64,000 nt of DNA from Buxus sempervirens (Eukaryota > Streptophyta > Magnoliopsida > Buxales > Buxaceae). Each line of letters starts with the position of its first letter. The stretch's first letter is position 1. Position numbers and translations under genes: made by a program. Positions 3,652-63,404 of the stretch are shown here, piece by piece. The notes beneath the pieces were generated by a model. That model had not been told where the DNA came from, made no database searches, and was given only the letters and a program-made list of their open reading frames with translations. Location of the stretch: positions 26,970,329-27,034,328 of the forward strand of contig OX387189.1 of assembly GCA_947561395.2 (NCBI GenBank), read 5' to 3'.

Positions 3652-3740
3652 GGTCTGACCACATACCCTATGCATATCAAACCTGACCACATATACGGTG
3701 CGGTCGGGTCTGATCCTCACTGATTATGCAGATCCGACCC
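3652..3740 (-). repeat. Palindrome array (GACCACAT…GTGCGGTC) in family B LTR
   Basis: Two to three imperfect palindromes lie in tandem. The clearest has arms GACCACAT and GTGCGGTC (3684-3705). The others are GACCACAT…ATGCATATC and GATCCTCA…TGCAGATC. The equivalent place in the related LTR at 61408-61487 holds three palindromes of the same word. On the sense (minus) strand it lies more than 1 kb downstream of the TATA box. Confidence 0.6.
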
Positions 3741-5030
3741 GAATCCCAAAAATGCCAAAAATTCCACTTGGGACCTATTCGTCCCTTCTCTAATGACCTT
3801 TGCGACCTGCTGTGGATCTCTGAGCAGACCTACAATGGTTATCAATATCATTCTTAGCTCAAAACACCCACTTTCATCAAACCATTCACATGCTTCTTCA
3901 ACTAACCAACAAACAAATACAATAACTTAAAAAGAAAGAAAAGTAATCTTGTATGAGGATGTTAATATGAAACACCTAATATCAACAAGTGAGTTAGGTG
4001 AAAAAGGGATTTCATTCTAATATTCACAATAGAGACAAATATGAGCTGAAATGGGTCTAAACAAACCTTTAATACACTACAAATGGGAGTACATGTGTAA
4101 TACTGATTTCCTAAAAAAACCATTTAAAACAGTAGAGGGATGAGATGATCGTGCACACAAGTTAATGGTGGAAACATGCTAAGTGAGATGACATTTTCTA
4201 TTATTTACATAGGATAAAAGAACGGCCATCAAAAGGGAACCTGATCTCATCTAAAAAAACTTCTTATGTGAATGCATAGTATTTACTTTAATGTTCCTAA
4301 AAAAAAGCACGTCAAGCTACACATGGATATGGATTATTAGATGAGTATGAGGTATTCTTGCATATGGCTATGGATGTAGATGAGAAAAACAAGAACAAAC
4401 AAACACATAAAAAGACAAGCAACTTATCTTAGTGGAAGGGGAAAAGGGAAAAGAAAGTTAAGGATACACAAGATGAAACAAAGAGGACAAACCCCTCTTG
4501 AAAATAGAGACAAATCAGTAATAAAAATGATGTAAAATGATCTGCATGAGACTTTCTATATTGAACAAAGACCTTCCTCCTCCCATCCTTTCGTATGAGG
4601 AGTCCCCTTTATCATGGGGACTCCCTTAGCATGCAAAATAAGATCACATGGTGAGTATAAGACAATAAAAGGTAAATCCGAAGACAATCAAGTAGAAGGA
4701 TTTGCTTAAAAGAACTTCACTTCAATATATATTGAAAAATATTCAACAAATGTTGTTACCTTGGTATTGCCTTCTCTCTTAGGAGTGTGATGGTCCTCCG
4801 AAAGATGTAGACAGCAACTCAAAAGCCTTCCTTGCTCCAAAGACAGCTTCTTGTTTGTCTTTGTGTGTAAAAAGTGGAGAAAATGAGCAAAAGAGAGACT
4901 TGGAGGGGTATTTTGGGGATTAAAAGAGGCTTAGGTGAGGGAGAAGTGGTTCAAATGGTTGCAAGTCACCGGAGGGGCAGGGTAACAACAAGGGTAAGAG
5001 AGGCTCTCCAAACAATGGCTGCTGGCCTCT

Positions 5031-5037
5031 ATTTATA
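5031..5037 (-). promoter_or_regulatory. TATA box of the minus-strand family B LTR
   Basis: The minus strand reads CTATAAAT, 13 bases downstream of the palindrome array at 5050-5203. The solo LTR at 60613-63201 has the same GCCTATAAATAG sequence at the corresponding place. Confidence 0.6.
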
Positions 5038-5049
5038 GGCAAAAATTTC

Positions 5050-5203
5050 GAATCCGCACTAAAAGTGCGGATCCCATTTTAAACGTGCGCGATCTCCATG
5101 AATCAGATAGTTGTCGCCAGCTGTCCGATCGGATCCACACTATATGTGCGGATAGGTCTTGTCCACACATATAGTGCGGACGTGCACATTTAAAATACGC
5201 GGA
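5050..5203 (-). repeat. Palindrome array (ATCCGCACT…AGTGCGGAT) upstream of TATA
   Basis: Four palindromes sit upstream of the LTR TATA box on the minus strand: ATCCGCACT…AGTGCGGAT (5050-5073), ATCCACACT…TGTGCGGAT (5131-5152), GTCCACACAT…AGTGCGGAC (5161-5180) and CGTGCACATT…AATACGCGG (5180-5203). The layout matches the TATCCGGC arrays of family A but the word is different. Confidence 0.7.
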
Positions 5204-6138
5204 TTTCAAACTCCTCATTTTGGTGAGTTTTTTTTATTATTATCCGTTATTTTAATTATATAAATCGAGATATTTGTAAAAAGTTATTATTTTAATCCCG
5301 ATTTTTATTTGTTTTGTCCTTTTCTGCCTTTTCACCAAACAAGCAATTTTCCTGAAATTTTGACTTGTCATAACTTTTTCATCTGATGTCTAATTTTAGC
5401 AAACTTAGTGGCGTTGGAATCAGGTCAAGATTCCCTATCCACTTAGTTAAAGTTTGGCAGCAAATTCAGGTTTTTGGTAGAAAGCCGAAACTGCTCCTCG
5501 GAATCCAATTTTACTTATAACTTCTTATCCGGGACTCCAATTCCGACAAACTTAATTGTGTCGAGATCATGTTAGGATCCTCTATCTTCTGGGAGCAAGT
5601 TGGACAGCTGAACTGGGCTCGAGCGGAAAGGCAATTTCTGCCCCCTAAGTTTGACTAGCCCATAATGTAACGCCCCGGATCCGAGTTACATGGACTAAAC
5701 CGTAACTCGTCACTGAAGGGTTACATATCCACCCAGGAATGCAAATCAGAGTACAGGAAACACAAAAAAACATTTAAATATATAATCAGAGTCAACTAAA
5801 CCCATCACAAATGAAATATCATATCTATATTCTGATACTCACATGATCTAAATGTTTACCCACCGATATTGTCCTTTCCAAGATCTGAAAACAAAACAAA
5901 ACTAAACGGTCTGAGATACGAATATCCTAGTAAGTAGCACATGCACGCTCATAAACATTTTTTCACAGTTCTAAAACATGCTACAGATTAAAATATACAT
6001 TGGAAACAACAATGCAAATAAACTAGATAATCCCACTATAATATATTCATAGATACAAGACAACTAGAATAAATCTGCATGCCAATCAAATCTGAGTATC
6101 AATCATAATTAACCAATCATAGCAAGACTCGTGGAAAT

Positions 6139-6770
6139 TTGACTACTTTGCCACAGCACTTCCCTCATGGAAGGCCTCTCCATCATGGAGGAAATGCATT
6201 AAAGAGATTGCAGCACTTCCCTCATGGAAGGCCTCTCCCTCATGGAGGAAATGCATTAAAGAGATTGCAGCACTTCCCTCATGGAAGGCCTCTCCTTCAT
6301 GGAGGAAACGCATTAAAGAAATCCCTCATGGAAGGCCTCTCCCTCATGGAGGAAACGCATTAAAGAGATTGCAGCACTTCCTTCATGGAAGGCCTCTCCC
6401 TCATGGAGGAAACGCATTAAAGAGATTGTAGAACTTCCTCCATGGAAGGCCTCTCCCTCATGGAGGAAACGCATTAAAGAGATTGCAGCACTTCCTTCAT
6501 GGAAGGCCTCTCCCTCATGGAGGAAACGCATTAAAGAGATTGTAGCACTTCCTTCATGGAAGGCCTCTCCCTCATGGAGGAAAAGCATTAAAGAGATTGC
6601 AGCACTTCCTTCATGGAAGGCCTCTCCTTCATGGAGGAAATGCATTAAAGAGATTGCAACACTTTCCTCATGGAAGGCCTCTCCCTCATGGGGGAAACGC
6701 ATTCAGGATACTAAACTTGCAGCACTTCCCTCATGGAAGGCCACTCTATCATAGAGGAAACGCATTGGTG
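6139..6770. repeat. 60-bp minisatellite of CTTCCYTCATGGAAGG units
   Basis: About ten tandem units of roughly 60 bp. Each contains two adjacent palindromes (CTTCCYTCATGGAAGG and CTCCCTCATGGAG) followed by AAACGCATTAAAGAGATTG. Open frames across it on both strands are repeat translations, not genes. A single diverged unit (TCCTCCATGATGGAG, CTTCCATGAGGGAAG) survives near 52805-52845 in the oppositely oriented family C LTR, so the array expanded after the copies separated. Confidence 0.9.
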
Positions 6771-7150
6771 GATGAGTGGGATAGTCTTAGGATACCCAAT
6801 AAGGTCACCATACCAAAAATCAATTAATTCTAAAACAAACAATTTCGGACCCCAAAAATATTCTAAGTCTGGTTAAAAACGTTGACCTTTGGGTATATAA
6901 TTTTTCTAGACCAATCCACGAGGAGTTTACGGCTCAAATTCTGGTTATAGTCTAGTTAGGGGTAAACAAATCTTCTAGAATTTTATGGGCTTTTAAATCA
7001 CTCATCTGGGTACCAAACTCAAAATGGGATTTTTAATAAAAATCAAGAAAACTGGAAATTTAGGCATAAACTAAAAAGTTGACTTTTTATTGGTTGGGAA
7101 TTGGACCTTGGGAGTATTTTTATTGGCTCCAAATGGGAGGTAAAACCTTA

Positions 7151-7215: not shown

Positions 7216-7831
7216 ATGTAATAAGGGTGCTTTGTAGAAAGCTCAGGTCATTTGGGAAAAGGTGTAGACACCCCAAAATTGCACGATTTTTGATAAATCT
7301 TGAAGGAGAGAAATATTTTATTGGAATTTTCAATTCTTTGCATTGGGTTTGAGATACTTAACCCATTTGAATCCAAAACCGTAAAGGAAAAGGCACGAAT
7401 TCAATCTTTTGTGCAAAGTCAAACTTTTTCTGGTTGAATTTTGTTGACTTTTGACCCCAGAAAATGAAATATTTTTTAAAGCCAGATTTCATGATAATTT
7501 TTCCCGGTAATCAGGTTTTTAGCCATGTTATTGCATAAAAGAATTTTTTGAGATTTTAAATCTTGACGAATACCTTGGTTTTAACATATTGAATCTTTTT
7601 ACCGGACTTGAAAAATCGGAATTTTTGCCTAGAACTGGAAATTTGACTTTTTATTCACTTGGAATTTGGGTCTGGAACTATTTTTAATGGATTCAAATGG
7701 GGGGTGTTTGCTTATTTACATGTAATATATTAAGTAAATGGAGATTAAAAAATACGATAGCATTTACTTAAACAATATTACATGTAAATAAGTATTGCCT
7801 GTGTTAAAATTGGGATAAAAGCTTCTTTTTT

Positions 7832-7976
7832 TGTATCTGACAGATAATGTCGGATACAAAACATCTTTATTGTATCCGACAAATAATGTCGGATACAATG
7901 GATCTTCTTTGTATCCGACAGATAATGTCGGATACAAAGAAAATTGCTTGTATCCGACCTAACATGTCAGATACAA
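7832..7976 (+). repeat. Palindrome array (TGTATCCGAC…GTCGGATACA), four units
   Basis: Four palindromes, starting near 7832, 7870, 7910 and 7949, have arms TGTATCYGAC and GTCGGATACA and spacers of about 11-14 bases between units. In other family A copies the core is CCGGC…GCCGG. Open frames here on the plus strand are repeat translations. Confidence 0.9.
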
Positions 7977-8497
7977 GCTTTTTACTCAAAATTAGGGTTT
8001 TCCGAGAGTTTCACCTTTTACCATCATATCCTTCATTAAAGGAGTGGAAATCTCGGAAATAGCCTTAGTGGTTAAGGTTGGTGGGCTATAGACCTTATGT
8101 TGTGTCTACCACGTCACCAACCCTAACCCTAGCCTTTGCCTATAAATAGGAGGCTCCTCCTCAAGCAAATGGCCAACAATTCTTGTCAAGAACTTTTGCC
8201 AAGAAGAGCTCCGAGTGAAGAGGGAAACCGCTGCTGAAGTGCTTCCAGAACCCAGGTAAGCCTCAAACCTCTTTTTAAATTCTTGTTTTTACATTTCTAG
8301 ATCTAGATCTCTTCTTCTACCTTTCTGTAGAATAAGGCCTTGATGTGTGTATGAAAACCCTTCCCCGGCTCAAAGTATCTCAAGACTCCCCCTAACCGTA
8401 AAACGTAAAGGCGGGATCTAGGAGAAACGAGACTGGGGATTGATCCTAGTGCTAGAACCTCTTTTGAATAAGCCTTTTGAATCTTTGAAGACCGTTC

Positions 8498-8790
8498 CAT
8501 ATTCAAAGTACCCCAAGATTATCTTGAAGAACCGTGTCTAACGAGGAGAGAGAACTAAGGGAAACGATAATGGAACGGAACCCTAAGTTGTTCTAGAACC
8601 CCTTTTTTTATTGATCTAAATGCATGCTATAAGCCTTGTGATTCTATGAAAACCATTCCATATTCAAAGTACCCCAAGATTATCTTGAAGAACCGTGTTT
8701 AACGGGGAGAGAGAACTAAGGGAAACGATAATGGAACGAAACCCTAGGTTGTTTCTAGAACCCTATTTTGATTGATATGAATGCATGCTA
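8498..8790 (+). repeat. Tandem duplication of about 145 bp within LTR
   Basis: Segments beginning CCATATTCAAAGTACC at about 8498 and 8651 repeat almost exactly, through GGAACGRAACCCTA. Other family A LTRs have one copy here. An older related module (GGCTCAAAGTATCTCAAGACTC) lies upstream in all copies. Confidence 0.75.
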
Positions 8791-10270
8791 TCTTTGCTAT
8801 GTTGTTGGAATGATTTTTTTACACTTACACATACATAGCACATGATTTTGGCAGGATAGGCTCATAATTCGGATTTAATGCATTCGTTGTGATAAATCTG
8901 AAATAAATAGTCCCAAGCAATTCTGGGATGTTTTTAAATGATTTTCAAAGGATTTTGATTAATCTTGCACGGATCACACACCTCTTGTCACTGTTTTGAA
9001 TTGATTTACTCCAAAAATGGCTTAACTTGACAGCAACTGTACCCCGACTTCGGATACTCATAACTTCATCGTCCGGATGCATTTTGGAGTGATTCCAGAA
9101 CCATGAAAAAGGTGAGGCTATCTAGTTTATGCCTACCAAATTTCATGAATTTCTATCAAGCGGAGTTTTTACACCTCTCTGTCGAAGTTGATAGGTCAGT
9201 TCTGATCTGAATACAGAACTTGTCACTTCGACTGAGCGCCATGTGTTCGTTTTAAGTCCGATTCGAGTGATTCTTGTTTCTGAGTTTTCCTATGGAAGTC
9301 TAGTTTTAAATTCAGTTGGTTTCATAATTTTATGACTCCATTTGTGTCGTGAGCAACAGATTTACTCAGAGCTGTTCAATAGCACTTTTCTGGGTAAATC
9401 TGTGATCTTCGGGGCCTGTTCGGGAGACCACCCAAGGCACATCCGAATGAATTTTTGTATGAGGCTAGTTTCATTTTGAAAGATGGCCATACAGACTTCA
9501 CTCACACCAAATTTCATGAATTTATATGGAGCCGCTTTTGCTAGGTGATTTTCCAAACTTGCCTACTTACCACTTTTAATTATCTCCAGCAGCAATTTTA
9601 AAGGAGGCATAACTCCTAGGATTTCAACTGGATTCAATTGAAATTTTGCATGAATCTCTTATTGATCATAATCTTTCAAATGGATTTGGTTTGAGTCAAT
9701 TTAAAATTGGATTTGAATGATTTCGAGACAAATGGTTCTTGCTTTTACCGAATTTACCGGATTTAACTCAATTTGGTTTTGTGCAACTTTTGCTTTGATT
9801 TCCATCTTTTGGTGATATTCCAGAAGTGATATTAACATAAAAGAAGATCTAGAATTCATTTGGATTTTCATATGAAGATATCATACATTTATCCTTTTTC
9901 AAGGTTTTTAATAGTTTTTAGCAAGCCTTCTTCTTTTTTAGCATGAACAACACTTGGCAACCATCTTGTGTGGGTGAATGGGGGTGCCTAACACCTTCCC
10001 CCGTTCATATCTAATCCCCTTACCCATCTCTGGATTTGAATTTCAAGTAGGGTTATTTTTACTCTAGAATTTGCCTTTTAAGCTTCTTTTGCTTATTTTA
10101 ATATTTTGGTGTCCATTCACACCTCCAAAAATCTGAATGGTGGTGACTCTCCCACTTTTTACGTTGAGCCCGTGTGTTGACGGAGGGTGAATTATCTTCG
10201 GTGATTTTTCCCATGTCTCACAAAAGGTTGGGGAAGAAAAGGGTGAAAAGCTGTCAAAATGGCATTTTTC

Positions 10271-12984: not shown

Positions 12985-13078
12985 ATTCCTGTAGACACCG
13001 CAAATTGCACAATAATCATCAAAAATCATTATCTCCTTGAAGGCCAGCACAAAAATTGAAGAAAATAAGTTTTTTACC

Positions 13079-13223
13079 TGTATCCGGCAACTCAGGCCGG
13101 ATACAAGTACTCCTCTTTATATCCGGTGGAACATACCGGATACAAGAAAGCTTTAGCGTATCCGGCATTCTATGCCGGATACCTGAAGGCCCTTGTGTAT
13201 CCGGCCTAATATGCAGGATACAT
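13079..13223 (+). repeat. Palindrome array (TGTATCCGGC…GCCGGATACA), four units
   Basis: Four palindromes at about 13079-13106, 13119-13145, 13157-13182 and 13197-13223 share arms TATCCGG and CCGGATA around 6-8 base loops. The first loop contains CAACTCAGG. The same array is in the 3' LTR at 40288-40433. Some units have lost perfect symmetry (GCAGGATAC in the fourth). Confidence 0.92.
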
Positions 13224-13238
13224 AAGTTTTGCTCAAAA

Positions 13239-13369
13239 TTAGGGTTTTCCGAGAGCTTTTCACTTTTACCATCATATCCCTCATTAAATGAGTGGAAATC
13301 TCGGAAATGGCCTTAGGGTTAAGGTTGGTGGGCTCTAGACATTATGTTGTGTCTACCATCACACCAACC
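13239..13369 (+). promoter_or_regulatory. Telobox and two nested inverted repeats upstream of TATA
   Basis: An exact telobox (TTAGGGTTT, 13239-13247) overlaps a 9-bp perfect inverted repeat TTTCCGAGA (13246-13254) / TCTCGGAAA (13299-13307). Next is a hairpin with arms GGTTGGTG (13323-13330) / CACCAACC (13362-13369) and inner arms TAGAC/GTCTA. Further CCCTAACCCTA sequence abuts the TATA region. The block is kept in family A copies at 7263, 17143, 28699, 40199 and 53557, which suggests function. Teloboxes are known binding sites of plant telomere-repeat-binding factors; a role here is inferred. Confidence 0.7.
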
Positions 13370-13387
13370 CTAACCCTAGCCTTTGCC

Positions 13388-13395
13388 TATAAATA
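13388..13395 (+). promoter_or_regulatory. LTR TATA box
   Basis: TATAAATA follows the telobox and hairpin block. Equivalent boxes lie at 8141, 18006, 29098, 40597 and 53956. An ATG starts only 28 bases downstream, so transcription may begin at or just beyond that ATG. Confidence 0.8.
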
Positions 13396-13415
13396 GGAAG
13401 CTCCTCCTTAAGCAA

Positions 13416-13505
13416 ATGGCCATTAATTCTCTTGCCAATAAGTTGGAGATCCAAGAGCTCCAAGTGAAGAAGGGAACTGCCGCCGGATTGCTTCCAGAAC
13501 CCCAG
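13416..13505 (+). CDS. Candidate LTR-encoded first exon of gag
   Basis: An ATG at 13416 opens a 30-codon frame that ends exactly at CAG|GTAAG (13505/13506), a consensus plant splice donor. The best acceptor upstream of gag ends at 20634. Joining the two keeps phase 0 and the gag frame stays open. Five of seven LTR copies (13416, 18034, 29126, 40625, 53984) keep an open 29- or 30-codon frame in the same phase, although parts of the sequence differ. The copy at 8169 has a TGA and the minus copy near 52250 is out of phase. Against coding: the ATG lies only 28 bases from the start of the TATA box, so it may precede the transcription start. The exon would then be untranslated. Confidence 0.4.
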
Positions 13506-15299
13506 GTAAGCCTCAAACCTCTTCTTTATTTTCTGTATTTACATTCCTAGATCTAGATCTCTTCTTCTACCTTTCTGTAGAATAAGGCCTTCTATGTGTA
13601 TGAAAACCCTTCCCTGGCTCAAAGTATCTCAAGACTCCCCCTAGCCGTAAAACGTGAAGGCGGGATCTAGGAGAAACAAGACTGGGGATTGACCCTATTA
13701 CTAGAACCTAGTTAGAATAAAGCCTTTCAAATCTTTGAAGCCCGTTTCATATTCAAAGTACCCCATGATTATCTTGAAGAACCGTGTTTAACGGGGAGAG
13801 AGAACAAAGGGAAACGATAATGGAACAGAACCCTAGGTTGCTTTTAGAACCCTATTTTAAATGAATGAGAATGCATGCTATGTTGTTATATTGTTCTTGA
13901 ATGATTTTCACTTACACATACATTGCGCCCGTTTTGGCGGGATAGGCTCATATTTTGGGTTTATTACATTTATTGTGATAAATCTGAAATAAATGGCCTC
14001 AATCAATTCTGGAATGTTTTTAAAAGGTTTTTAAAAGATTTGGATTCATATTGCACGAATCACACACACTTTATCACAGTTTTGAGTTGGTTTTCTCCAA
14101 ATAAGGCCTAACTGGACAGCAACTGTATCCCGACTTCGGACACTCATAACTTCATCGTCCGGATGAATTTTGGTGTGATTCCAGAACCATGGGAAAGGTG
14201 AGGCTGTCTAGTTTATGCCTACCAAATTTCATTAATTTCTATCAAGCGGATTTGTGACACCTCTCTGTCGAAGTGGATTGGACAGTTCAGGTTTAAATAC
14301 AGAACTTGTCACTTCGACGGAGCGCCATGTGTTCGTTTTAAGTCCTATTCGAGCGATTTTTGTTTCTGGGCACTCCTCTATGAGTCTATTTTCAAATCTA
14401 GTTGGTTTCATAATTTTTTGACTCCATTTGTATTATTGGTAACAGATTTACTCAGAACTGCTCATCAGTACTTTTCTGGGTAAATCTGTGATCTTCGGGG
14501 CCTGTTTGGGAGATCACCCAAGGCACATCCGAATGAATTTTTGTATGAGGCTAGTTTCGTTCGAAAGATGGCCATACAGACTTCAATCACACCAAATTTC
14601 ATGAATTTTTCTAGGGGATTTTCCAAACTTGCATGCTTATCACTTTTGATTTTCCCCAGCAGCAACTTTAAAGGAGCATAACTCCTAGGATTTCAACCGG
14701 ATTTACTTAAAATTTTGCATGAGGCTCTTATTTACCATGATCTTTCAAATGGATTTGGTTTGATTCAATTTAAAATTGATTTTGAATGATTTCAAGACAA
14801 ATGGCATTACTTTTCACTGAATTTTCCAGATTTAACTCAACTTGGTTTTGTGCAACTTTCGCTTTGGATTTCCATTTTTGTTGAGATTCCAGAAGTGATA
14901 TTGACATAAAAGAGGATCTAGAATCCCTTTGGATTCCTCATGTGAAAATATCACACATTGGCTTAATTCTTTTCCAATGTTTTTAATGATTTTTAGCAAG
15001 CTTTCTTATCTTTTTTGCATGAACAAACACTTGGCAACCACCTTGTGTGGGTGAATGGGGGTGTCTAACACCTTCCCCCGTTCATAATCTAATCCCCTTA
15101 CCCATCTCTGGATTTAATTTTCAAGTAGGGTTATTTTTACCCTAGAATTTGTCTTTTAGCTATTTTTGCTTATCTTTAATCTTTTGGTGTCCATTCACAC
15201 CCCAAAATTCTGAATGGTGGCGACTCTCCCAATTTTGCGTTGAGCCCGTGTGCTAACGGAGGGGAAATCATCCCGGTGATTTTTCCCATGTCTCACAAC

Positions 15300-15317: not shown

Positions 15318-17142
15318 ATTGTGGATTTAAGCCATTTTGTGTATATTCATGCTTTTTCTTTACTTTTGAATGCTTGCTATTTTGTTTATTTTGCTTGTGT
15401 ATATTGAATCTCAAATCTAATTTGTATGATTAGAAAATTCACAAGGATAAAGGCATGGGCATGTTGCTTGATTTTTGTTTAAAGGAAAAACCCATATTGT
15501 TATATGACTTTGCTATATTATGTGTTAGCATGTGTTATTTTGGGGTTTCAATGCCATGAGCTAAAAAAAATGCAATATTTGAAATCTGGAAATTTTGTGT
15601 TTATTTTGGGTATTCAAGCATGTTTCCCATGAATAAAGCTTTTTTTTTGTGCTTAATGTTTATTTTATGCCATGCTTTGGATTTGGGGGTATAGGATGAC
15701 ATGATTTGAGCATGAAAACCATGAGCAATGAAATCTGAAATTCAATAGCCATCATAAGGGTTTTCAAGCATGTTTTTACCATCAAAACTCTCCTTATACC
15801 ATGTCAAGTAGTTGCTAAATTTTTAGGCATTAATTTGGGGTATAAGTGATGCACTTTTGAGTATGAAAAATCTGGAAATTTTAGTGTATTTTGGGGGGTT
15901 TTCAAGCTTGTTTCAACCATCAAAACCTTTCTTATATCATGTCAAGTAGTGCTGAATTTTTAGGCTTCAACTTGGGTAAATGGTACACTTTGAGCATGAA
16001 AAGAGCATGAAAATTTGGAATTTTAGGGAATGCTTTTGGGTTTCAAGCATGCTTCCATGGTTTAATTGTTGTTTGCACAAATAACATGTTTGTATACTAC
16101 TTTTTGGGCATGTAATACTTGTGTGCATATTTAGTTGCTTTGGTTCTCTTGCTTGTTTGTATTTAGCTTCATTATATTGTCATATGTGCCTTGGCTTGAA
16201 ATTGAATGCATGGCTACGAAAAAGAGTGGCAAGGGGCTGGGACATTGTGAATGTTACCTCAATTTTAAATTGCACTTGAGCACTTTAAACTATTTGCACA
16301 ACCTACCCATTACCTATAGGAAGTTGAACCATGAATGTGTGTAGCTTGGCGCACCGAGGTCGTGACTTCGGAAAGCAAAAGTGAAAACATTTACCTTAGA
16401 ATTTGAGTCAATGATGTGATGACAATGGGATCTGTGATTCAATTCCGGGCATTACTAGACTTGAGTTCTAAGTTGCCAATTAAGCCAAAACCCAAAAACC
16501 ATACGCTTGAAGGTGGAGAAACACGTTTTCAGCTAAAAGTACACAATTGCGTTTGGGGAATTGGGTGTAAATGTGGGAAGGCCGATTGCATGTTTTACAG
16601 GCCAAGGTATACTATGAATACCATATTGAAGGTAATACAATGTGGCAAGGTAAAGCCATGTTCTTTTCATGAATTTGTGAATTTTGCAAAAATGATGTTC
16701 AAGCCCAATTTGGGGCAAGTTTTAGAGGCCAAGTTAAGGTGAACATCAAGTGGGAATGAAAATAACCTAATCTGGTGAAAAAATGAGTCACAAAGGGCCA
16801 TTTCGGCGTTAACCGGCAACTCAGGCCAGTTAAGAACAATCCTATTCATATTCGGTATATATTGCCGGTCACAAAGGTATATGCGTGTATCCGGTCATTA
16901 TTGCCGGATACAATAAGACATATCCTTATCCGGCACTTAATGCCGGATACATGCAGAAAATGTGTAAATTGGCTTTTTCAGCCCGAATTTCCAGAACAAA
17001 ATGCCTAAACACTGTGGATAATCCTTAGGCACCCCAAAGAAAATATAAAAATGTTTCAAAAAATAAAAAAATAAAAAAAATGTATATATTCTTTTAGGAT
17101 TAAACCTAATTTTGAAACTCAAAGAGCAAGCTAAGGTGTCAT
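15318..17142 (+). other. Leader region of the element, first part
   Basis: Non-coding leader between PBS and the nested LTR. It holds repeated paragraphs of the form AGCATGAAAA…TTTTGGGGTTTTCAAGCATG (about 15590-16050), weakly tandem. An open frame at 16416-16742 (first ATG 16419, about 107 codons, several cysteines) has no domain I recognise. It might be a relic of the extra upstream ORF that some Ogre elements carry, but I would not call it a gene. A palindrome array follows at 16809-16952. Confidence 0.55.
16809..16952 (+). repeat. Palindrome array in the leader
   Basis: Four palindromes lie in internal sequence rather than LTR: AACCGGC…GCCAGTT, ATTCGGTA…TGCCGGTC, TGTATCCGG…TGCCGGATACA and TTATCCGGC…TGCCGGATACA. 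The word is that of the element's own LTR. The only TATA-like sequence downstream is TATATATT near 17080, about 130 bp away. Confidence 0.8.
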
Positions 17143-19909: not shown

Positions 19910-20003
19910 GTCATATTTTTTGATACCAATTCAATTCAAACATGTGTCAATCAAGCTTTTGAACTAGAAAACTGAGAAGATTCAGCAAATTTAAAAAAAA
20001 ACC

Positions 20004-20480
20004 TTGGTTGGTTATATTTATCAATCAAATCAAAAAAATTGTGGGACCTTTGGAAGCCCTAAAATATTCCATAAAAACCTTGGTTGGTTATTTTTATCAA
20101 TCAAATCAAAAAAATTGTGGGACCTTTGGAAGCCCTAAAATATTCCAAAAAAACCTTGGTTGGTTATTTTTATCAATCAAATAAAAAATTGTGGGACCTC
20201 TAGAAGCCCTAAAATATTCCATGAAACCTTGGTTGGTTATTTTTATCAATCAAATCAAAACATTTGTGGGACACTTGGAAGCCCTAGAATATTCCAAGAA
20301 ACCTTTGGTTGGTTATTTTTATCAATCAAATCAAAACATTTGTGGGACACTTGGAAGCCCTAGAACATTCCAAGAAACCTTTGGTTGGTTATTTTTATCA
20401 ATCAAATCAAAACATTTGTGGGACACTTGGAAGCCATAGAATATTCCAAGAAACCTTTGGTTGGTTATTTTTATCAATCG
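20004..20480 (+). repeat. 76-bp tandem repeat, six units plus a partial
   Basis: Units begin TTGGTTGGTTA at 20004, 20080, 20156, 20229, 20305, 20381 and 20457, so the period is 76 bp with one unit of 73. Frames across it encode repeated GYFYQSNQN-like peptides in several phases and are not genes. It lies just upstream of the gag splice acceptor. Tandem repeats in untranslated regions are common in Tat/Ogre elements. Confidence 0.95.
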
Positions 20481-20616
20481 AATGTATAAAAAACAAAAAA
20501 CGAAAAAATAAAAAATAAAATAAAATAAAAAACAAATCCGGACTTGTGTTCACCTAACCTACTTGTCTACATGTATAGGGGTGTGACCCAAGTTAAATGG
20601 AATCTGACATGTCTCT

Positions 20617-20634
20617 TTGCTTTTCTTTCCCCAG
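20617..20634 (+). promoter_or_regulatory. Predicted splice acceptor before gag
   Basis: TTGCTTTTCTTTCCCCAG is a pyrimidine-rich tract ending in CAG, followed by GT at 20635. It lies immediately upstream of the conserved PVTRSKA gag start and has no in-frame ATG before it. It pairs logically with the LTR donor at 13505/13506. That intron would remove the rest of the LTR, the PBS and the leader. Confidence 0.55.
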
Positions 20635-39585: not shown

Positions 39586-39653
39586 TGTGTATCCGGTGAA
39601 TCAGGCCGGATACACACGAGCCCTGCCTTATCCGGTATGCTATACCGGATACA
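39586..39653 (-). repeat. Two-unit palindrome array in the antisense gene 1 promoter
   Basis: Palindromes TGTGTATCCGG…CCGGATACACA (39586-39616) and TTATCCGGTA…TACCGGATA (39628-39653) use the element's own word. Both arms are perfect or nearly so. Confidence 0.85.
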
Positions 39654-46958: not shown

Positions 46959-47106
46959 GTTGATCCAACAACTCAGATCGGATCAGCGGGGGGCCCATTT
47001 GTAGCCGACCAACCTGGTCGGCTACATGTATTTTGGTGTGTAGCCGACCTCTTAGGTTGGTTACAAGTAAGTTTATGTGTAGCCAACAACTCAGGTCGGC
47101 TACACT
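46959..47106 (+). repeat. Palindrome array (TGTAGCCGACC…GGTCGGCTACA), four units
   Basis: The units are TGATCCAAC…GATCGGATCA (46960-46985), TGTAGCCGACC…GGTCGGCTACA, TGTAGCCGACC…GGTTGGTTACA and TGTAGCCAAC…GTCGGCTACA. The loop CAACTCAGR in the first and last matches the loop of the first family A palindrome while the stems differ. It lies about 2 kb downstream of the TATA box. Confidence 0.85.
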
Positions 47107-50210: not shown

Positions 50211-52639
50211 TGTGAGACATGGAGGAAAAATCAATCCATTGACTTTTCGGTCATCACACGGAATTCATAAAAATGGGAGAGTCGCCACCATTCTTTTTAG
50301 GTGTGAATGGACACCAAAATTCATCAAAATAAGCAAAAAAACAAATCTTGAGTAAAAATTACCCTACTTGAAAATAAAATCCAGAGATGAATAAGGGGAT
50401 TAGATTATGAACGGGGGGGAGGTGTTAGGCACCCCCATTCACCCACACAAGGTGGTTGCCAAGTGTTGTTCATGCTCAAAATAAAGAATGCTTGCTAAAG
50501 TAATCAAAAAAGGCTTGAAAAAGATTAAACACATGTATGATTCCTCCACACGAAAAGTCCAATGAATCTTAGACTTTCTTTTATGGAAGTATAACTTCTG
50601 GGACATCACCATTAAAATGGAAATCAAAGCAAAACTTGAACACAACCAAGTTAAGACAAATCCGGAAAATTCGGTAAAAGATGGAGCCATTTGACCATAA
50701 ACCATTCAAATCAAATTCAAATTGAATCAAACCAAATCCATTTAAAAGATTATGATAAATAGAAGACTCATGAAAATTTTCAATTAAATTCGGTTAAAAT
50801 CCTGAGAGTTATGCTCATTTGAAATCTGTTGTTGGAAATCGGTAAAAGTAACAAGTGGGCAACTTTGGAAACTCATTTTGGGAGATTGGCTCCATATAAA
50901 TCCGTGAAAATTTGCATGGATGAAGTATGTAATGCCATCTTTCAAATGAAATAGGCCTCACACCAAACTCCATTCGGATGTGACTTGTGTGACCTCACGA
51001 ACATGCCCAGAGGATCACAGATCAGCACAGAATTGTGCAATAGGGCAGCTCTCAGTAAATCAGTCACACAAGATACAAATGAAATCAAAAAATTATGAAA
51101 CCAATTGGATTTGAAATTAGACTCCCAAATTAAAATACAAAAACAAAAATCACTCAAATCAGACTTAAATTGAGCAGATGGTACTCATTTGAAGTGACAA
51201 GTTCAGCAATCTGGTCTTAACTGACCTGTCAACTTCGACTGAATGGTGTCAAAAATCCACTTCATAAAAATGGCTGAAATTTTACAGACATAAACTAGAC
51301 AGTCTCATCTTTCACATGTCTTTGGAATCACTCCAAAATTCATCCGGACGATGAAGTTATAAGCGTCCGAAGTTAGGGTACAGATGTTGTCCAGTTTTGC
51401 CATTTTTAAGTAAAATTAACCCAAAACAGTGATCAAGTGTGTGTAATCCGTGCAATCTAAATCCAAATCATTTAAAAAAGTGTTGAAAAACCTCCAGGAG
51501 GAAATAAGACCCAAGCTTGGCTCACCATTCTCTTTGATTGGAGAGAATATGCCAAAAACCCTAAAATGGAGCGAAAATGCCCAAAACCGGGAGGTTAGCC
51601 CATGAGGCCTTCAATACTCAAAGATAACTTGCTTGAAATCATTTTGAAAATCATTAGGAGATATCCCCGAACTGCTTAGGGCTATTTATTTCAGATCTAT
51701 CACAATGAATGCGATAGATCCGAAATACAAGCCGATTCCGACAAAATGAGTGCGATGTGTGCATGTGTAAAAATCATCTTAACACATCATGACATATAGC
51801 ATTCAAAGCATATCAATTAAATGGGGGTTCTAAAAACTAGGGTTCCATTCCATTCTCGTTTCCCCTAGTTCTCTCTCCCCGTTTTACGATTTCAAGATAG
51901 TCTTGGAGTACTTTGAGTATGAAACGGTTTTCACAAAACAAAATGCCATTCAAGAGGGTTCTATAACTAAGGATCAATTCCCAGTCTCGTTTCCCCTAGA
52001 TCCCTCTTCACGTTTTATGGCTAGAGGGAGTCTCAAGGTACTTTGAGTAGGGAAAGGGGTTGCATACACAAAGAGTAGGCCATTATTCTACAAAAAGGTA
52101 GAAGAAGGATCTAACCCTAGAATGTAAAGACATTAAAATAAAGAAGTTCCAGGCTTACCTGGGTTTCTAGAAGCAATGCGGCAGCGGTTCCCTTCTTCAC
52201 TCGGAGCTTTCCAATCTCCAACTTCTTGCTCTGAAAACCTTGGCCATTTGCTTGAGGAGAGGCCTCCTATTTATAAGCAAAGGCTAGGGTAAGGGGGAAC
52301 CCTAATGGTAGACACAAAAAAGTATCTACCATTCTCCCACTTAACCCTAGGGTTATTTCCGAGAGTTCCACTTCTTAAACAAAGGATATGATGGTAAAAA
52401 GTGAAAACTTTCGGAAAACAAGGGATTATATTTATATCCGACATATGTCATCAGATACAATGATACTTGCTTGTATCCAACAACTTCCGTCGGATATAAG
52501 AACCCTTTCTTGTATCCGATGACTTGTGTCGAATACAATAGAGAACATTTCAAACTGAATTTTTGTGTTGGTTACAAAATATAGAATGATTTTGGCTACT
52601 TTTTCCTCATTTTCTCAGCGCAATTTTGGGGTGTCTACA
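50211..52639 (-). mobile_element. Family A solo LTR, minus strand, TSD ATAAG
   Basis: Plus strand reads TGTGAGACATGG (50211) to GGGGTGTCTACA (52639), flanked by ATAAG (50206-50210 and 52640-52644). Length is 2429 bp. It is diverged from the other copies. The array at 52432-52539 has three units with TATCCGAC-type arms. Minus TATA is near 52277 (CTTATAAATAGGAGG). Its first-exon frame is interrupted and out of phase. Confidence 0.93.
52432..52539 (-). repeat. Palindrome array, three units (TATCCGAC type)
   Basis: Imperfect palindromes TATATCCGACA…ATCAGATACA, TGTATCCAAC…GTCGGATATA and TGTATCCGAT…GTCGAATACA. One unit fewer than in other family A LTRs, and stem mismatches show decay. Confidence 0.8.
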
Positions 52640-53556: not shown

Positions 53557-55877
53557 TGTAGACACCCCAAATTGCACAATAATCATCAAAAATCATTATC
53601 TCCTTGAAGGCCAGCACAAAAATTGAAGAAAATAAGTTTTTTACCTGTATCCGGCAACTCAGGCCGGATACAAGTACTCCTCTTTGTATCCGGTGGAACA
53701 TACCGGATACAAGAAAGCTTTAGCGTATCCGGCATTCTATGCCGGATACCTTAAGGCCCTTGTTTATCCGGCCTAACATGCAGGATACATAAGTTTTGCT
53801 CAAAATTAGGGTTTTCCGAGAGCTTTTCACTTTTACCATCATATCCCTCATTAAATGAGTGGAAATCTCGGAAATAGCCTTAGGGTTAAGGTTGGTGGGC
53901 TATAGACATTATGTTGTGTCTACCATTCTCACCAACCCTAACCCTAGCCTTTGCCTATAAATAGGAGGCTCCTCCTTAAGCAAATGGCCATTAACTCTTG
54001 CCTTGAATTCTCGCCAAGAAGAGCTCCAAGAGAAGAGGGAAACCGCTGCGGAAGTGCTTCCAGAACCCAGGTAAGCCTCAAACCCCTTTTTAATTTTTGT
54101 CTTTACATTTCTAGATCTAGATCTCTTCTTCTACCTTTCTGTAGAATAAAGCCTTTTTGTGTGTATGAAAATCCTTCCTCGGCTCAAAGTATCTCAAGAC
54201 TCCCCCTAGCCGTAAAACGTGAAGGCGGGATCTAGGAGAAACGAGACTGGGGATTAACCCTAGTACTAGAACCCTATCTTGCATAAGCCTTCTGAATCTA
54301 TGTAAACCGTTCTATATTCAAAGTACCCCATGATTATCTTGAAGAATCGTGTTTAACGGGAAGAGAGAACAAAGAGAAACGATAATGGAACGGAACCCTA
54401 GGTTGTTTTAGAACCGTATTTTGATGAATATGAGAATGCATGCTATGTTGTCATATTGTTCTTGAATGATTTTCACTTACACATACATTGCATCCGTTTT
54501 GGCGGGATAGGCACATATGTTGGGTTTATTGCATTTATTGTGATAAATCTGAAATAAATGGCCTCAATCAATTCTGTAATGTTTTTAAAAGGTTTTTAAA
54601 GGATTTGTATTCATTTTGCACGAATCACACACACTTTATCACAGTTTTGAGTTGGTTTTGTTCAAAAAGGGCTTTACTTGACAGCAACTGTACCCCAACT
54701 TCGGACACTCATAACTTCATCGTCCGGATGAATTTTGGAGTGATTCTAGAACCATGGGAAAGGTGAGGCTGTCTATTTTATGTCCACCAAATGTTATTAA
54801 TTTCTATCGAACGGATGTTTTACACCTCTCTGTCGAAGTTGATTGGACAGTTCAGGTTCAAATACAGAACTTGTCACTTCGACGGAGCGCCATGTGTTCG
54901 TTTTAAGTCCGATTCAAGTGATTTTTGTTTCTGGGTACTCCTTTATGAGTCTATTTTCAAATACATTTGGTTTCATAATTGTTTGACTCCATTTGTATTA
55001 TTGGTAACAGATTTACTCAGAACTGCTCAATGGCACTTTTCTGGGTAAATCTGTGATCTTCAGGGCGTGTTCGGGAGACCACCCAAGGCACATCCGAGTG
55101 AATTTTTGTATGAGGCTAGTTTCTTTCGAAAGATGGCCATACAGACTTCAATCACACCAAATTTCATGGATTTGTATGGAGTGGATTTTTCTAGGTGATT
55201 TTCCAAACTTGCCTACTTGCCACTTTTGATTTTCTCCAGCAGCAACTTCAAAGGAGCATAACTCCTAGGATTTTAATCGGAATGGGGTGAAATTTTGCAT
55301 GAGACTATTATTTACCATAACTTTTCAAATGGATTTGGTTTGGTTCCATTTAAAATTGGATTTGAATGATTTCAAGACTAATGGCATTACTTTTCACCGA
55401 ATTTTTCGGATTTGATTCAACTTGGCTTTGTACACTCTTTTGCTTGGATTTTTATCCTTATATGACATTTCAGAAATGATATTGACATAAGAGAAGATCT
55501 AAAATCCATTTGGATCTTCATGTGAATATATCATACACTTGTTCCTTTTTCAAGGCTTTTGATAATTTTTAGCAAGCTTTCTTATTTCTTTTTTTGCATG
55601 AACAAACACTTGGCAACCACCTTGTGTGGGTGAATGGGGGTGCCTAACACCTTCCCCAGTTCATAATCTAATCCCCTTACCCATCTCTGGATTTGATTTT
55701 CAAGTAGGGTTATTTTTACCCTAGAAGTTGTCTTTTAGCTATTTTTGCTTATTTTTGAACTTTTTGGTGTCCATTCTCACCTCAAAATTTTGAATGGTGG
55801 CTACTCTCCCAATTTTGCGTTGAGCCCGTATACGGACGGAGGGTGAATCATCCCGGTGATTTTTCCCGTGTCTCACA
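53557..55877 (+). mobile_element. Family A solo LTR, TSD GGTTC
   Basis: TGTAGACACCCC to CGTGTCTCACA, 2321 bp, flanked by GGTTC (53552-53556 and 55878-55882). Short form, close to the full element's LTRs. Array 53646-53790, TATA at 53956, first-exon frame from 53984 open for 29 codons to CAG|GTAAG. It lies 67 bases downstream of the family B PBS. Confidence 0.95.
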
Positions 55878-59488: not shown

Positions 59489-59560
59489 GCATAGGTGTAC
59501 TTTGGGTAATGCATGGGTGTACTTTACTTATACAATGCTGGATTTCATGCATTCTTGGTC

Positions 59561-59770: not shown

Positions 59771-61407
59771 TGTCAGCACCTCATTTTTGCGCACCAAAAG
59801 TGCCGAAAATGAAAACCCTAATTGAAAAGTTAAACCCGAAAGGGTCAAAAAGTTTACTTTTTATGTGGTGCAAACCAGTCACCATACTTCTTATCATTGG
59901 AAAGAGGATTCCGATACGATTACAACGCAACTGAGTTTGCCCAAATCGGAGTCCAAATGAAGAAGTTATGAGCTAGTCAAATCTGGGAATAGTAGAAATC
60001 GACCTTTTGCTAAACCCCAGATCAGCTGTCCGATCTGGTCCTAGCAGAAAAAGCACTTCGACACGATTGTAACGCAACCAAGTTTGCTGGAATAGGGGTC
60101 TTAGATAAGGAGATATGAGCAAAACCGGCTTCCGACGAGCAATTTTGACTTTCTTCTAAAAGTTGAATCAGCAGTTCAATGTTATACTGGCGGATAGAGA
60201 TTTCCGACACTATTCCAATGCAACTGAGTTTGCTGGAATGAGACTCCGGATGAAGAAGTTATAGGCCGGTCAAACCTGAAAATAGCAGAAATTGGCTTTC
60301 TACTAAACCCCAGGTCAGCCGCCCAAACTTGTGCAAGCAGAAAGAGCATCTCGACACGATTCCAATGCAACTGAGTTTGCTAGAATCAGAGTCCCAGATT
60401 GAAAGATGTTAGGTTCAATATTTTATGTTGGCTTAATTTCATGCCAAAAAATGTGTTTAGTGTGTTTAGAATGTTTAGATTGAGTCCAAAAAGTCATGTT
60501 TCAAACAGCATTGCAAACGGAGTTAAAATGAGCTTTTTATGCTCAACGTTAGATTAACGTTTGATGTGGCATTCAAATGTTCAGTGTTTACAGAGAAACC
60601 CGACAGTGGCGTTGTGCGCACCTGATTTCGGGCCGCACGCGAGTTGTATATGAAATGATGCTCGCCTAGGGACTGATTTGGAGTCGCCACTGCCTGAGAG
60701 GTGCAGGCAGACACAAACGGGGCACCTATTCGGGCCTAATTATTCTGATATGCAGCTTTATTAGAGATCTAAGCAAGTTCTCGGTTACGTCTAGGGAAGT
60801 CTGAAGACACCCTAGCCCGCCCCCGTCGATTGACAGGTCCCATGGGTCTCCTTGGTTTGAGTCAACTTAGTTTTCACCCAATTCCTAAGCCAGCATGCAC
60901 ACTTATTTGGTCTGAGTGGGGACCATTGAGGGTGTGGGTCCCCTTTTGTTTGATTTTATCTTTTTATCAATTAGTGAAGTGGGTCTGGTATGGGCCCCGT
61001 TGGAAGGCCCAGTGGAATCCGAGTTAGGCTTAAGTCAAACCCAAGGCCCAATTCGGGTTATTGGGTAACCCTTATTGGATTTTGGCTATTTGGTTTAAGG
61101 AGTTATTGAATATTCACACAATTAGTGAGTTTGAGTTTTTAGGGCCCATTGGGCTTGGATTTGGCCCACAGGCTGTTAATCATATGGCCATTAACCCATT
61201 TATAAAAAAACGGGCTTTGGTTGGGCCAGACGGCATCTGGGCCCCTTCGGAGAGCACAAGAAACCTTGGTGGGCCCATTGGGCCCACAGTCTCAAAATGG
61301 GCTAGGAAAAGCCCAAAAATCCCAAATGGATCAGATCAAGTCTAAATGGGTTGGATTGGGTCCAACCGGGTTGAAAAAATGACTTTTTAAGTTAATTGCA
61401 AATCTGA

Positions 61408-61487
61408 AAACCACATATTTACTGCGGTTTAAGCCTGACCGCATATAAAGTGCGGTCAAGCCTAAACCGCACCAAAAATGCGGTTTC
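61408..61487 (-). repeat. Palindrome array (ACCGCATA…GTGCGGT), three units
   Basis: AACCACATAT…CTGCGGTT, GACCGCATATAAAGTGCGGTC (near perfect) and AACCGCACC…ATGCGGTT lie in tandem. The array is positionally equivalent to 3652-3740 in the other minus-strand family B LTR. Confidence 0.85.
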
Positions 61488-62398
61488 GGCCCGATTTCCC
61501 AAAAAACGCCTCCGCGGCCTCGGGATTTGGTTCGTTTGCTCCTTTTTGACGTCCGCCGACTTTGGTTGGTGATTTTGCCGGCTTCCAAGTGGTGCAAAGC
61601 TCTTATCTTTGGTTCAACCATCTTCTCTGTTATGTTCCACAGAAAGAAAGATCTTAATTCCTCTTTTATTTGTTTAAGCCATGCATACGTGAGGATCTTA
61701 CCGAGAAAGGAAAGAGGGAAAGATTATGGGGTACATAAGATGATTAAAGGAGGACAGACCCCTCCCCAAAGCAAGATGATCAAATCAGAATGTAGTTAAT
61801 GTAGAAAATGTTAAAAGAACCCCTTTCACTTTGTATGGAATCTCTATCCTCCCATCTTTTCGCGTATGTGAGTCTCTCATCGCGAGAGCTCACATACCAT
61901 GCACAGAAGCAAAACAGGTTAGATTTATAGCAACAAAGGAGAAGATTGAAATCACAAAAAGGAAGACTCTAGCTTTAAGCAATTGGAATCTTATATATCA
62001 AATATAAAATCAATATAAAGCTCACCGTGCTATTATTACCTTGTTCTGAGGTGTTGAGGTTCTCCGATTGATTTTGGCAGCACTTCCGCACTCCCTTTAA
62101 TTCTCCGAAATGGGTTTGAAAAGGGGTTCCCTTGTTTTGGGTTGAGAGAAATAAAAGATGGGGACAGTGGGTGGATTTTGGCAGCGCTTCCGCGCTCCTG
62201 TTGATTTTCCGAAATGGGTTTGAAAAGGGGCCCACTAGCTTCTTATGCTGAAAGAGATGAAAAGGATGGGCTAAAGGGCAAAATGGGGATTTTTCTGGGC
62301 TAGTGGGATTTTGGCAGGGTATGGACATGGAGAAGGCAAGGAAAGAGAGGGGGAATGGCCAAGGGGACCAGCTTACACAAATGGGGGGGCTGGCCCCC

Positions 62399-62406
62399 TA
62401 TTTATA
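62399..62406 (-). promoter_or_regulatory. TATA box of minus-strand family B solo LTR
   Basis: The minus strand reads GCCTATAAATAGGGGG. It lies 14 bases downstream of the palindrome array at 62420-62630. Confidence 0.65.
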
Positions 62407-62419
62407 GGCTTTTTTTTCG

Positions 62420-62630
62420 TGCCCATATTTGAACTGTGGGCATGCCTTGCCCGTAATTCAAATACGAGCATGCCTTGCCTGTATTTCAAATGCAGGTGAA
62501 AAACTCACGTTTTCAAATCTCGCCGAATCGGCCAGTTGTCGCCGTACGGGACGCGTGTCCCGCTTTTAGAAGGCTTGCCCGTATTTGAAGTGCAGGCATG
62601 CCTCGCCCGCACTTGAAATACAGGGGCGCA
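62420..62630 (-). repeat. Palindrome array (CCTGTATTTCAAATGCAGG type)
   Basis: Units include GCCCATAT…CTGTGGGC (62421-62441), CCCGTAATTCAAATACGAG, CCTGTATTTCAAATGCAGG, CGGGACGCGTGTCCCG, CCCGTATTTGAAGTGCAGG and CCCGCACTTGAAATACAGGG. The word has no similarity to TATCCGGC, but number, size and place upstream of TATA are the same. Confidence 0.8.
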
Positions 62631-63201
62631 CGTTTTTTAATTGCTAGATTTGAAACACTTTATTAAATTTGATTTTTAATAAAGATTTTATTCTGATTTA
62701 TTATTATTATATTATAAAAATCTTAGATTTTTTATTAAAAATATTATTAAAATATTAAGATATTTTTATTAAATGATTATTTTATTCATTTATTCTACCT
62801 TTTTTCTGCTGTTTTGCCACATGGGCAGCTTTCTTTGAAACTTCAACTGCCCATAACTTTTCCGTCCGAACTCCGATTTCAGCAAATTTGGTGTCGTTGG
62901 AATCGGCTCAGAACCCACTATCCAATGGGATCAAATGGGGCAGTTGAATCGGGGTCGAGCAGAAAGTCAACTTTCGCTTCCCCAAAAGTTTGACCGGATC
63001 ATAACTTCCTCACCCGGACTCCGATTCCAGCAAACTCAGTTGTGTTGGAACCCTGTCAAAACGTTCTTTTCAATGAGATGAAGTTTTATGGCAAATTATC
63101 CTTGGATCAAAAAATCAAATTTTGGCCCCCTTAGGGTTTGAATTTTTAATTAAAATTTTCATTTTCTGCATTTTTTGGGGTGCAAAAATCAGGTGTCTAC
63201 A

Positions 63202-63404
63202 GGCGTTCTCCAACGTTAGCTGTGGCGTTCAACCGTTGAAATTCTGCAAAGAAACCCGAGAGTGGCATTCTCCAACGTTAGCTATGGCATTCGAACGTTC
63301 AGTATCTGCAGAGAAACGGTGGTTCAACGTGAGACCCACGTGAGACCAATGTGAGACACGGAATTGAATGTGAGATGCAACGTTCGAATGTTCAATTTCT
63401 GCAC
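63202..63404 (+). repeat. AACGTT-word array, continued from 60535-60612
   Basis: Diverged units of about 75-80 bp contain CCAACGTTAGC, GGCATTCGAACGTTCAG and CTGCANAGAAACCC. The left part, with CAACGTTAGATTAACGTTTG, lies at 60535-60612. The two parts are split by the solo LTR, whose GGCGT duplication falls within a unit. The array precedes the TATA box at 63588. Confidence 0.75.

Follow-up and report, generated by a model that had tools for sequence, protein, structure and literature searches.

A complete element and its accessory genes

The stretch of Buxus sempervirens DNA analysed here (contig OX387189.1 of assembly GCA_947561395.2, positions 26,970,329 to 27,034,328, forward strand), which we call the window, is 64,000 nt long and crowded with Ty3/gypsy long terminal repeat (LTR) retrotransposons; all comparisons were confined to sequence inside this one window. 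It holds a complete element that is assigned to the Tat/Ogre type by its domain order, with two plant mobile domain (PMD) genes on the opposite strand between integrase and 3′ LTR. Arrays of short palindromes, or dyads, occur in the LTRs of this element, in its leader and at the promoters of both PMD genes, and we discuss here whether they may be the operator sites of a dimeric DNA-binding protein. The main parts of the element are the following (introns of the PMD genes were judged by eye).

12990-42506, plus strand: complete Tat/Ogre-type Ty3/gypsy element, as judged from LTR pair, target-site duplication, primer-binding-site-like sequence and Pfam domains
12990-15297 and 40199-42506: its LTRs, 2308 bp, 97.8% identical to each other
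20608-26019, plus strand: gag and pol parts with Retrotrans_gag, G-patch, reverse transcriptase (RT) and RNase H (Pfam)
31021-32258, plus strand: RVT_3, a second RNase H-like domain, and integrase (Pfam)
34517-35221, minus strand: first exon of PMD gene 2 (its start codon and limits were set by eye), with an in-frame stop after it
37392-38192, minus strand: exon of PMD gene 1 with the PMD (1e-9)

The element is flanked at either end by the 5-bp target duplication ATTCC, and the primer-binding-site-like sequence TGGCGACTCTGCTGGGGA lies at 15300, just past the 5′ LTR. Its Pfam matches include the dual RNase H arrangement, RT_RNaseH plus RVT_3 ahead of integrase, and a solo LTR (28699-31020) together with other sequence separates RT from RVT_3 and integrase.

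Arrays of CCG-N11-CGG dyads

An earlier note on this stretch had described palindrome arrays upstream of LTR TATA boxes, alike within an array and with another word in each lineage, and had read them as sites of a dimeric factor or as hairpins; its observation was confirmed in part, and its interpretation is supported in part. The arrays themselves are real, as their number greatly exceeds what chance would give. A CCG-N11-CGG core underlies almost all units and is the rule common to the different words. When dyads were called on this core (at least 5 of 6 core bases and at least 8 of 11 pairs), the window contained 46 of them, as compared with a mean of 0.57 and a maximum of 4 in 60 dinucleotide shuffles, with 29 neighbours within 100 bp, against none in the shuffles. 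The bare string CCG-N11-CGG was found 37 times where 2.6 occurrences were expected (maximum 6 in 100 shuffles). Other spacings also peaked, namely CCG-N24-CGG (23), CCG-N37-CGG (40), CGG-N9-CCG (27), CGG-N22-CCG (28) and CGG-N35-CCG (41), which follows arithmetically from the 39-bp period and from the fact that CCGG contains both CCG and CGG.

The core also emerged from a scan made without preselection, in which each of the 64 trinucleotides was tried at 25 spacings. Over the whole window it ranked second after GTA-N19-TAC, which represents an outer portion of that motif; with family A LTRs and tandem repeats masked it ranked first (20 versus 4.2), and with the complete element masked as well it came second after AAA-N7-TTT (11 versus 1.6). 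In total there are 16 arrays of 2-5 units each with 59 units, or 12 arrays if orthologous LTR copies are counted once. Seven lie in family A LTRs, six in LTRs of a second type (C1 and C2 on the minus strand, C3 on the plus strand), and three in the internal region of the complete element.

13079-13222, plus strand: A13, 5′ LTR of the complete element, 4 dyads TGTATCCGGC with a period of 39 bp, TATA 179 bp downstream of the last centre
40288-40431, plus strand: A40, 3′ LTR of the complete element, 4 dyads with a period of 39 bp, TATA 179 bp downstream of the last centre
17696-17839, plus strand: A17, in the family A solo LTR 17143-19909, nested in the complete element, duplication GTCAT
28788-28931, plus strand: A28, in the family A solo LTR 28699-31020, nested in the complete element, duplication CCAAT
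53646-53789, plus strand: A53, in the family A solo LTR 53557-55877, duplication GGTTC
7832-7975, plus strand: A7, in the family A solo LTR 7263-10222, duplication AAAGG, word TGTATCCGAC, with A after the core where A13 has G
52433-52537, minus strand: A52, in the family A solo LTR 52639-50211 (minus strand), duplication CTTAT, 3 dyads, word TGTATCCGAC
16808-16951, plus strand: leader array, between primer binding site and gag, 4 periodic units
35350-35493, minus strand: promoter array of PMD gene 2, 4 units, 39 bp, last centre 24 bp from TATAAA (35339)
39588-39653, minus strand: promoter array of PMD gene 1, 2 units, 39 bp, last centre 22 bp from TATAAG (39579)
5049-5184, minus strand: C1a, word ATCCGCAC, 3 units (28, 81 bp), last centre 25 bp from TATAAA (5037)
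3682-3736, minus strand: C1b, downstream in the LTR of C1a, 2 weak units (GACCGCA, TGATCC), 28 bp, no TATAWA within 400 bp
62418-62628, minus strand: C2a, in the C2 solo LTR (63201 to about 60613, minus strand, duplication ACGCC), word GCCCGTA, 5 units (28, 100, 28, 28 bp), last centre 25 bp from TATAAA (62406)
61406-61488, minus strand: C2b, downstream in the LTR of C2a, 3 units (AACCGCA, GACCGCA), 28-bp period, nearest downstream TATAWA at 215 bp
44761-45007, plus strand: C3a, 5 units TGTATCCGRC (39, 103, 39, 39 bp), last centre 24 bp from TATAAA (45018)
46960-47104, plus strand: C3b, three TGTAGCC units and one TTGATCC, 40/39/39 bp, no TATAWA within 400 bp

In the leader array one unit is badly paired (5/11) and another has a deviant outer word (TTAACC).

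A shared core with changing flanks

The statement that the word changes between lineages has to be qualified: the flanks change, but the CCG core and the N11 spacing persist. Half-site words that face their own mirror at equal distance are TGTATCCGGCA in family A, TGTATCCGACA in A7 and A52, TGTAGCCGACC in C3b, ATCCGCACT in C1a, AACCGCA and GACCGCA in C2b, and GCCCGTA in C2a; the lineages differ in the bases next to the core. Nor does each lineage have a word of its own, as family A and the array at 44761-45007 have nearly one in common.

Over the 86 half-sites of 43 units, the core reads C in 82, C in 76 and G in 73 cases at its three positions (1.73, 1.48 and 1.29 bits), followed in conservation by an A two bases ahead of CCG (1.24 bits). 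The base after CCG carries only 0.19 bits when pooled over these half-sites, yet it is uniform over all half-sites within 13 of the 16 arrays, for instance G in 8/8 in A13, A in 8/8 in both A7 and C3b, and C in 6/6 in both C1a and C2b. The base before CCG is likewise uniform within 13 of 16 arrays (e.g., T 8/8 in A13, C 10/10 in C2a, A 6/6 in C2b). Between the A7 and A13 LTRs the stretch from array to TATA is identical at 159 of 172 positions, and yet the base after CCG differs in all eight half-sites.

Units do agree within an array, as had been claimed. Arm identity lies between 0.69 and 0.94 in 15 of the 16 arrays (0.50 in C1b), the central 5 bp are identical at 0.20-0.63 in 15 of 16, and the outer bases at 0.08-0.50. 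The spacing between units is similarly constrained. With one array taken per orthologous group, 27 of 31 unit intervals measure 39 bp (20 cases) or 28 bp (7 cases), the odd ones being 40, 81, 100 and 103 bp. The difference between 39 and 28 is 11 bp, about one helical turn, such that both intervals would hold dimers on one face of the helix.

One part of the earlier description did not survive. The AACGTT words at 63202, which had been counted as an LTR array, lie outside the C2 LTR, which starts at 63201 on the minus strand, and no CCG-core dyad is present there. AACGTT occurs 15 times in the window, with a mean of 8.4 in 30 shuffles. A repeated block bearing AACGTT flanks the C2 solo LTR at 63202-63400 and 60545-60562, and its larger part is without a CCG-core dyad.

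Pairing of the two arms

The claim that both arms change together between lineages is borne out for the arrays in the window, under both definitions of a unit. In the main test, which omits the four orthologous family A arrays A40, A17, A28 and A53, the arms are paired in 243 of 301 non-core cells; when right arms were dealt over all units, the mean was 149 and none of 5000 permutations reached 243. The dyads in this test were chosen partly for being paired. In a repeat, units were fixed by period alone (35 units in 11 arrays, a set that further lacks C1b as well as two units of C3a, two of C2a, one of C1a and one of C3b), and 202 of 245 cells were paired, with a permutation mean of 135.5 and again 0/5000 reaching the observed value. 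Within the seven arrays that have distinct words, arms agree with their own partners at 6.3 of 7 positions and with foreign arms at 2.9, and only 2 of 5040 array permutations, the true order included, reach the observed sum.

The picture is different when right arms are dealt within arrays only. The mean then rises to 230 and the observed value is reached in 83 of 5000 permutations, and with period-fixed units in 693 of 5000. Thus, the overall effect stands, whereas the within-array effect does not: the arms agree chiefly because a whole array has one half-site, and not because of compensation hairpin by hairpin. The mismatches point in the same direction. In 378 cells of 54 distinct units (of 59) we counted 17 G-T, 21 A-C and 8 other mismatches, a balance that argues against a strand preference such as folded RNA would give, and 38 of the 46 are transitions, as would be expected from the decay of methylated cytosine. 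Arm pairing is therefore a lineage-level effect with weak or no unit-level compensation, and this favours a dimeric DNA-binding factor over a hairpin.

Arrays at LTR, leader and PMD promoters

Many arrays are indeed located upstream of an LTR TATA box, but not all of them are: three lie downstream of TATA inside LTRs (C1b, C3b and C2b), one is found in the leader, and two are located at the antisense PMD promoters. In the complete element one and the same word is present at five sites, i.e. both LTRs, the leader and both PMD promoters, and hence this single element carries one site array at its own promoter and at accessory-gene promoters alike. In the six comparisons between the arrays of 5′ LTR, leader and the two PMD genes, arms are 68-89% identical, as opposed to 29-44% for spacers and linkers. 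The first spacer, ACTCA, is common to the arrays of LTR, leader and PMD gene 2. This recurrence suggests that the arrays share ancestry and are old copies of one module of which mainly the arms have been kept.

At five promoters, those of three LTRs (C1a, C2a, C3a) and of both PMD genes, the centre of the last dyad is located 22-25 bp upstream of TATA. A search of 105 TATAAA/G sites for dyads 14-60 bp upstream, made without a shuffle control for the distance, gave nine matches, six at 22-25 bp, two at 49 and one at 53. The sixth match in the 22-25 bp class is a TATAAA inside a C2b dyad, the match at 53 is the next unit of C2a, and both matches at 49 are TATA strings within arrays. Directly after TATA, the promoter of PMD gene 1 (39555-39576) and C3a (45027-45058) have an inverted repeat that is perfect and rich in GC.

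In each of the C-type LTRs the promoter array is followed, about 1-2 kb downstream, by a second one that belongs to the same class of unit spacing and has another word. These arrays (C1b, C2b, C3b) are putative additional binding sites, and we have no good explanation for them beyond that.

The PMD genes

Both antisense genes encode PMD proteins, since they score 38.1 and 38.5 bits with Pfam PF10536, for which the gathering cut-off is 34.9. Gene 2 fits DUF7745 better (72 bits); its frame 34517-35362 matches DUF7745 at 6.1e-20 and the PMD at 1.3e-9, and a sub-threshold continuation of the domain lies at 33976-34320 (E 0.02-0.03). The apparent span of gene 1 is from about 38419 to 35690, with introns and in-frame stops (limits by eye). 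A search of the window for further PMD copies gave none that was convincing, the best other match having E 0.88.

Searches elsewhere contributed little. Sequences in the PDB gave no match to PMD gene 2 up to E 1, and for gene 1 they gave two carveol dehydrogenase chains (E 0.011 and 0.53) that match the Gly/Arg-rich N-terminal part only and were judged meaningless. NCBIfam had no match for either PMD protein, and one for gag that was far below cut-off. No relatives were found in viral contigs (queried with PMD, RT and exact dyads) or in prokaryote genomes (queried with RT), collections that are uninformative on spread in plants.

Other features of the complete element include a G-patch match in the pol region 23623-25230, upstream of RT, a sense reading frame of 111 codons at 16407-16742 just ahead of the leader array, without a Pfam match, and 76-bp tandem repeats at 19923-20564 between the nested solo LTR and gag. 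Outside the element, 57-bp tandem repeats are located at 6104-6777.

A possible self-regulating circuit

The arrangement described above would be explained if each array were a cluster of operator sites, bound by a dimeric protein that recognises a specific DNA sequence. The half-site would consist of the CCG core and lineage-specific flanks, two half-sites would face each other across 11 bp, and dimers would stack at 39 or 28 bp. The binder may be one or both of the PMD proteins made by the element from its antisense genes, alone or with a partner. By binding, it would act on the LTR promoter, and thus on the genomic RNA, as well as on the promoters of the PMD genes themselves, such that a self-regulating circuit would result. 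This circuit would probably activate transcription or remove silencing, which seems likelier than repression because the element gains from it. As families diverge, specificity and sites would change together, such that each family addresses its own copies.

Of the two readings that had been offered earlier, a dimeric factor with fast-changing specificity thus fits well with the fixed spacing, the like half-sites, the mostly unlike spacers and the way in which the bases next to the core change over a whole array, while the hairpin is disfavoured by the weak within-array pairing and the lack of a G-T excess. What the earlier note had missed, namely the CCG core, the internal arrays and the PMD genes, suggests who the binder may be. 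We consider PMD proteins the best candidates because they are encoded by the only accessory genes recognised in the element and because arrays are found at their own promoters. We would give an even chance to the proposal that the arrays are bound by a PMD protein, with or without a partner, and that this protein thereby controls the LTR as well as its own gene. More tentatively, and with somewhat more doubt than belief, one may extend this to the PMD proteins of Tat/Ogre elements at large. These would then form a large and quickly evolving class of dimeric regulators that bind DNA, and every member would read the half-site of its own family (variable base, CCG, variable base) in CCG-N11-CGG arrays, both at the LTR and at the promoter of its own gene; MAIN and MAIL1, which are silencing factors of the host, would in that case go back to a retrotransposon self-activator or have a common ancestor with one.

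Several observations weigh against this proposal. Concerning the promoters, C1a and C2a look related by eye, and the five promoters therefore represent at most four independent cases. In six of the seven A-type LTRs the array is 179-180 bp from TATA and not 25 (the distance was obtained for all but A52). C1b, C2b and C3b, downstream of the LTR TATA, are without a TATAWA within 200 bp downstream in either direction, and their words differ from that of the promoter array in their own LTR. The words themselves are not always uniform: the base after CCG is mixed in C2a (T 6, C 4), C3a (G 7, A 3) and PMD gene 2 (G 7, A 1), and the base before it in the leader (T 5, A 3), C3b (G 5, T 2, A 1) and C1b (T 2, A 2), i.e. 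in 3 of 16 arrays each. In C2a the centre is more alike between units (0.88) than the arms (0.69). As to the PMD genes, both are broken copies with in-frame stops, and they belong to the single element whose internal region is inside the window. The two proteins are 27% identical and have one word at their promoters, and so at least one of them may not be a binder. A coiled coil for dimerisation, seen by eye, was not significant in a crude heptad test (shuffle fractions 0.78 and 0.91), and a coiled-coil Pfam model matches below cut-off (E 0.0058 and 0.051). Finally, the fold prediction, made from two sequences, was unusable, with a predicted local distance difference test (pLDDT) score of 34.7.

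The arrays could instead be bound by a host transcription factor, in which case the element would have borrowed a cis-element from the plant and the antisense genes would carry the same enhancer. GCCGAC in C3b equals the core of the cold and drought dehydration-responsive element (DRE), and TATCC is similar to sites of MYB type. Recruitment of host factors is common among plant LTRs (PMC12786077). Against this, A13 and A7, although their LTRs are related, have different bases beside the core in every half-site, and the words GCCCGTA, AACCGCA and TGTATCCGG would require different host factors, all of them using CCG-N11-CGG and, in addition, an equal distance to TATA in three LTRs. Since the bases beside the core differ in step between related families, a co-evolving factor is more probable than a single host factor, and we regard the host explanation as unlikely.

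It is improbable that another protein of the element is the binder, for example the product of the leader frame 16407-16739 or a part of gag or pol, and that the PMD genes are merely controlled by it. The element does encode gag, a G-patch segment and the leader frame, and the leader too has an array, but no Pfam domain supports the leader frame, and arrays are located at both PMD promoters, as autoregulation by a PMD protein predicts.

As hairpins or cruciforms the dyads might serve, for instance, in RNA packaging, in processing or as small-RNA precursors, and selection would then act on pairing rather than on sequence. With arms of about 8-11 bp and a short loop the dyads could fold, the genomic RNA would include U3, the leader and the antisense promoter regions, and in the main test few permutations reached the pairing observed within arrays. 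This last point became unremarkable with period-fixed units; furthermore, the half-site is much the same across the units and arrays of one lineage, and a wobble excess was absent from the mismatches. We hold such a function to be distinctly improbable. That the arrays are the neutral leftover of an ancient tandem repeat whose units duplication and gene conversion have kept alike is highly improbable, for while the recurrent ACTCA spacer fits with shared ancestry, conversion would have levelled spacers, linkers and arms alike, and it is the arms and the spacing that were kept.

Comparison with known systems

A circuit in which PMD proteins control both LTR and PMD promoters would have parallels in other mobile elements. 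The internal promoter of foamy viruses drives Tas itself. Tas, as described in two reports (PMC4929722, PMC8670036), is a factor encoded by a retroelement that acts on the LTR and on an internal promoter; here, one site array is present at the LTR and at internal accessory-gene promoters, which a single factor might likewise bind. The difference is that the accessory genes here are antisense PMD genes and the site arrays are symmetric; a relation to Tas was checked by Pfam scan only.

With respect to the divergence of the sites, the closest likeness is to VANC of the Arabidopsis VANDAL elements, for which arrays of short motifs in several non-coding regions that differ between related families have been described, and co-evolution with the protein of the element has been proposed (PMC5735166, PMC10398659). 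However, VANDAL is a DNA transposon, its motifs are 8-9 bases long and arranged in tandem repeats, and the protein is of another family; the term palindrome is absent from the part of the VANC text available (PMC5735166). Membership in the VANC family was considered and rejected, as the element is an LTR retrotransposon with PMD genes and not a Mutator-like VANDAL.

PMD open reading frames in Ty3/gypsy elements of the Ogre/Tat group have been described before, although the available sections of these reports describe no array or binding site (PMC6317226, PMC5418596). The PMD is found in 57% of Ogre elements (PMC6317226), PMD-A clades are confined to Gypsy elements, and silencing in Arabidopsis is under the control of the PMD relatives MAIN and MAIL1 (PMC5418596). 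When plant LTR retrotransposons were screened, the PMD was the most frequent non-canonical domain, with unknown function (PMC9289625), and in tea 175 phased small interfering RNA loci are reported at PMD genes (PMC10673657).

MAIN and MAIL1 resemble the proposed binder in that they are PMD proteins required for promoters bearing a motif: 25 of the 26 genes that need MAIN/MAIL1 in all mutants tested share one promoter motif, and direct recognition of it by the PMD is put forward as a hypothesis (PMC7156037, PMC9899485). This DOWN motif, CATGCAGTTT in the MORC1 promoter, is unlike CCG-N11-CGG (PMC7156037, PMC9899485). Retand and Grande share with our element the position of antisense genes between pol and 3′ LTR whose products are predicted to be DNA-binding or nuclear; the excerpt gives a nuclear protein and a promoter of its own for the Grande gene and predicts DNA binding for the Retand proteins, which have TRP28 and other domains, and matching sites in the LTR are not described in it (PMC11963269).

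Among the literature matches listed, mostly titles and the beginnings of abstracts, none linked PMD genes to LTR palindromes. With a site array legible from sequence alone, at LTR and PMD promoter alike, the role of the PMD would become directly testable. If the proposal is true, plant LTR retrotransposons carry lineage-specific transcription switches, as foamy viruses and VANDALs do.

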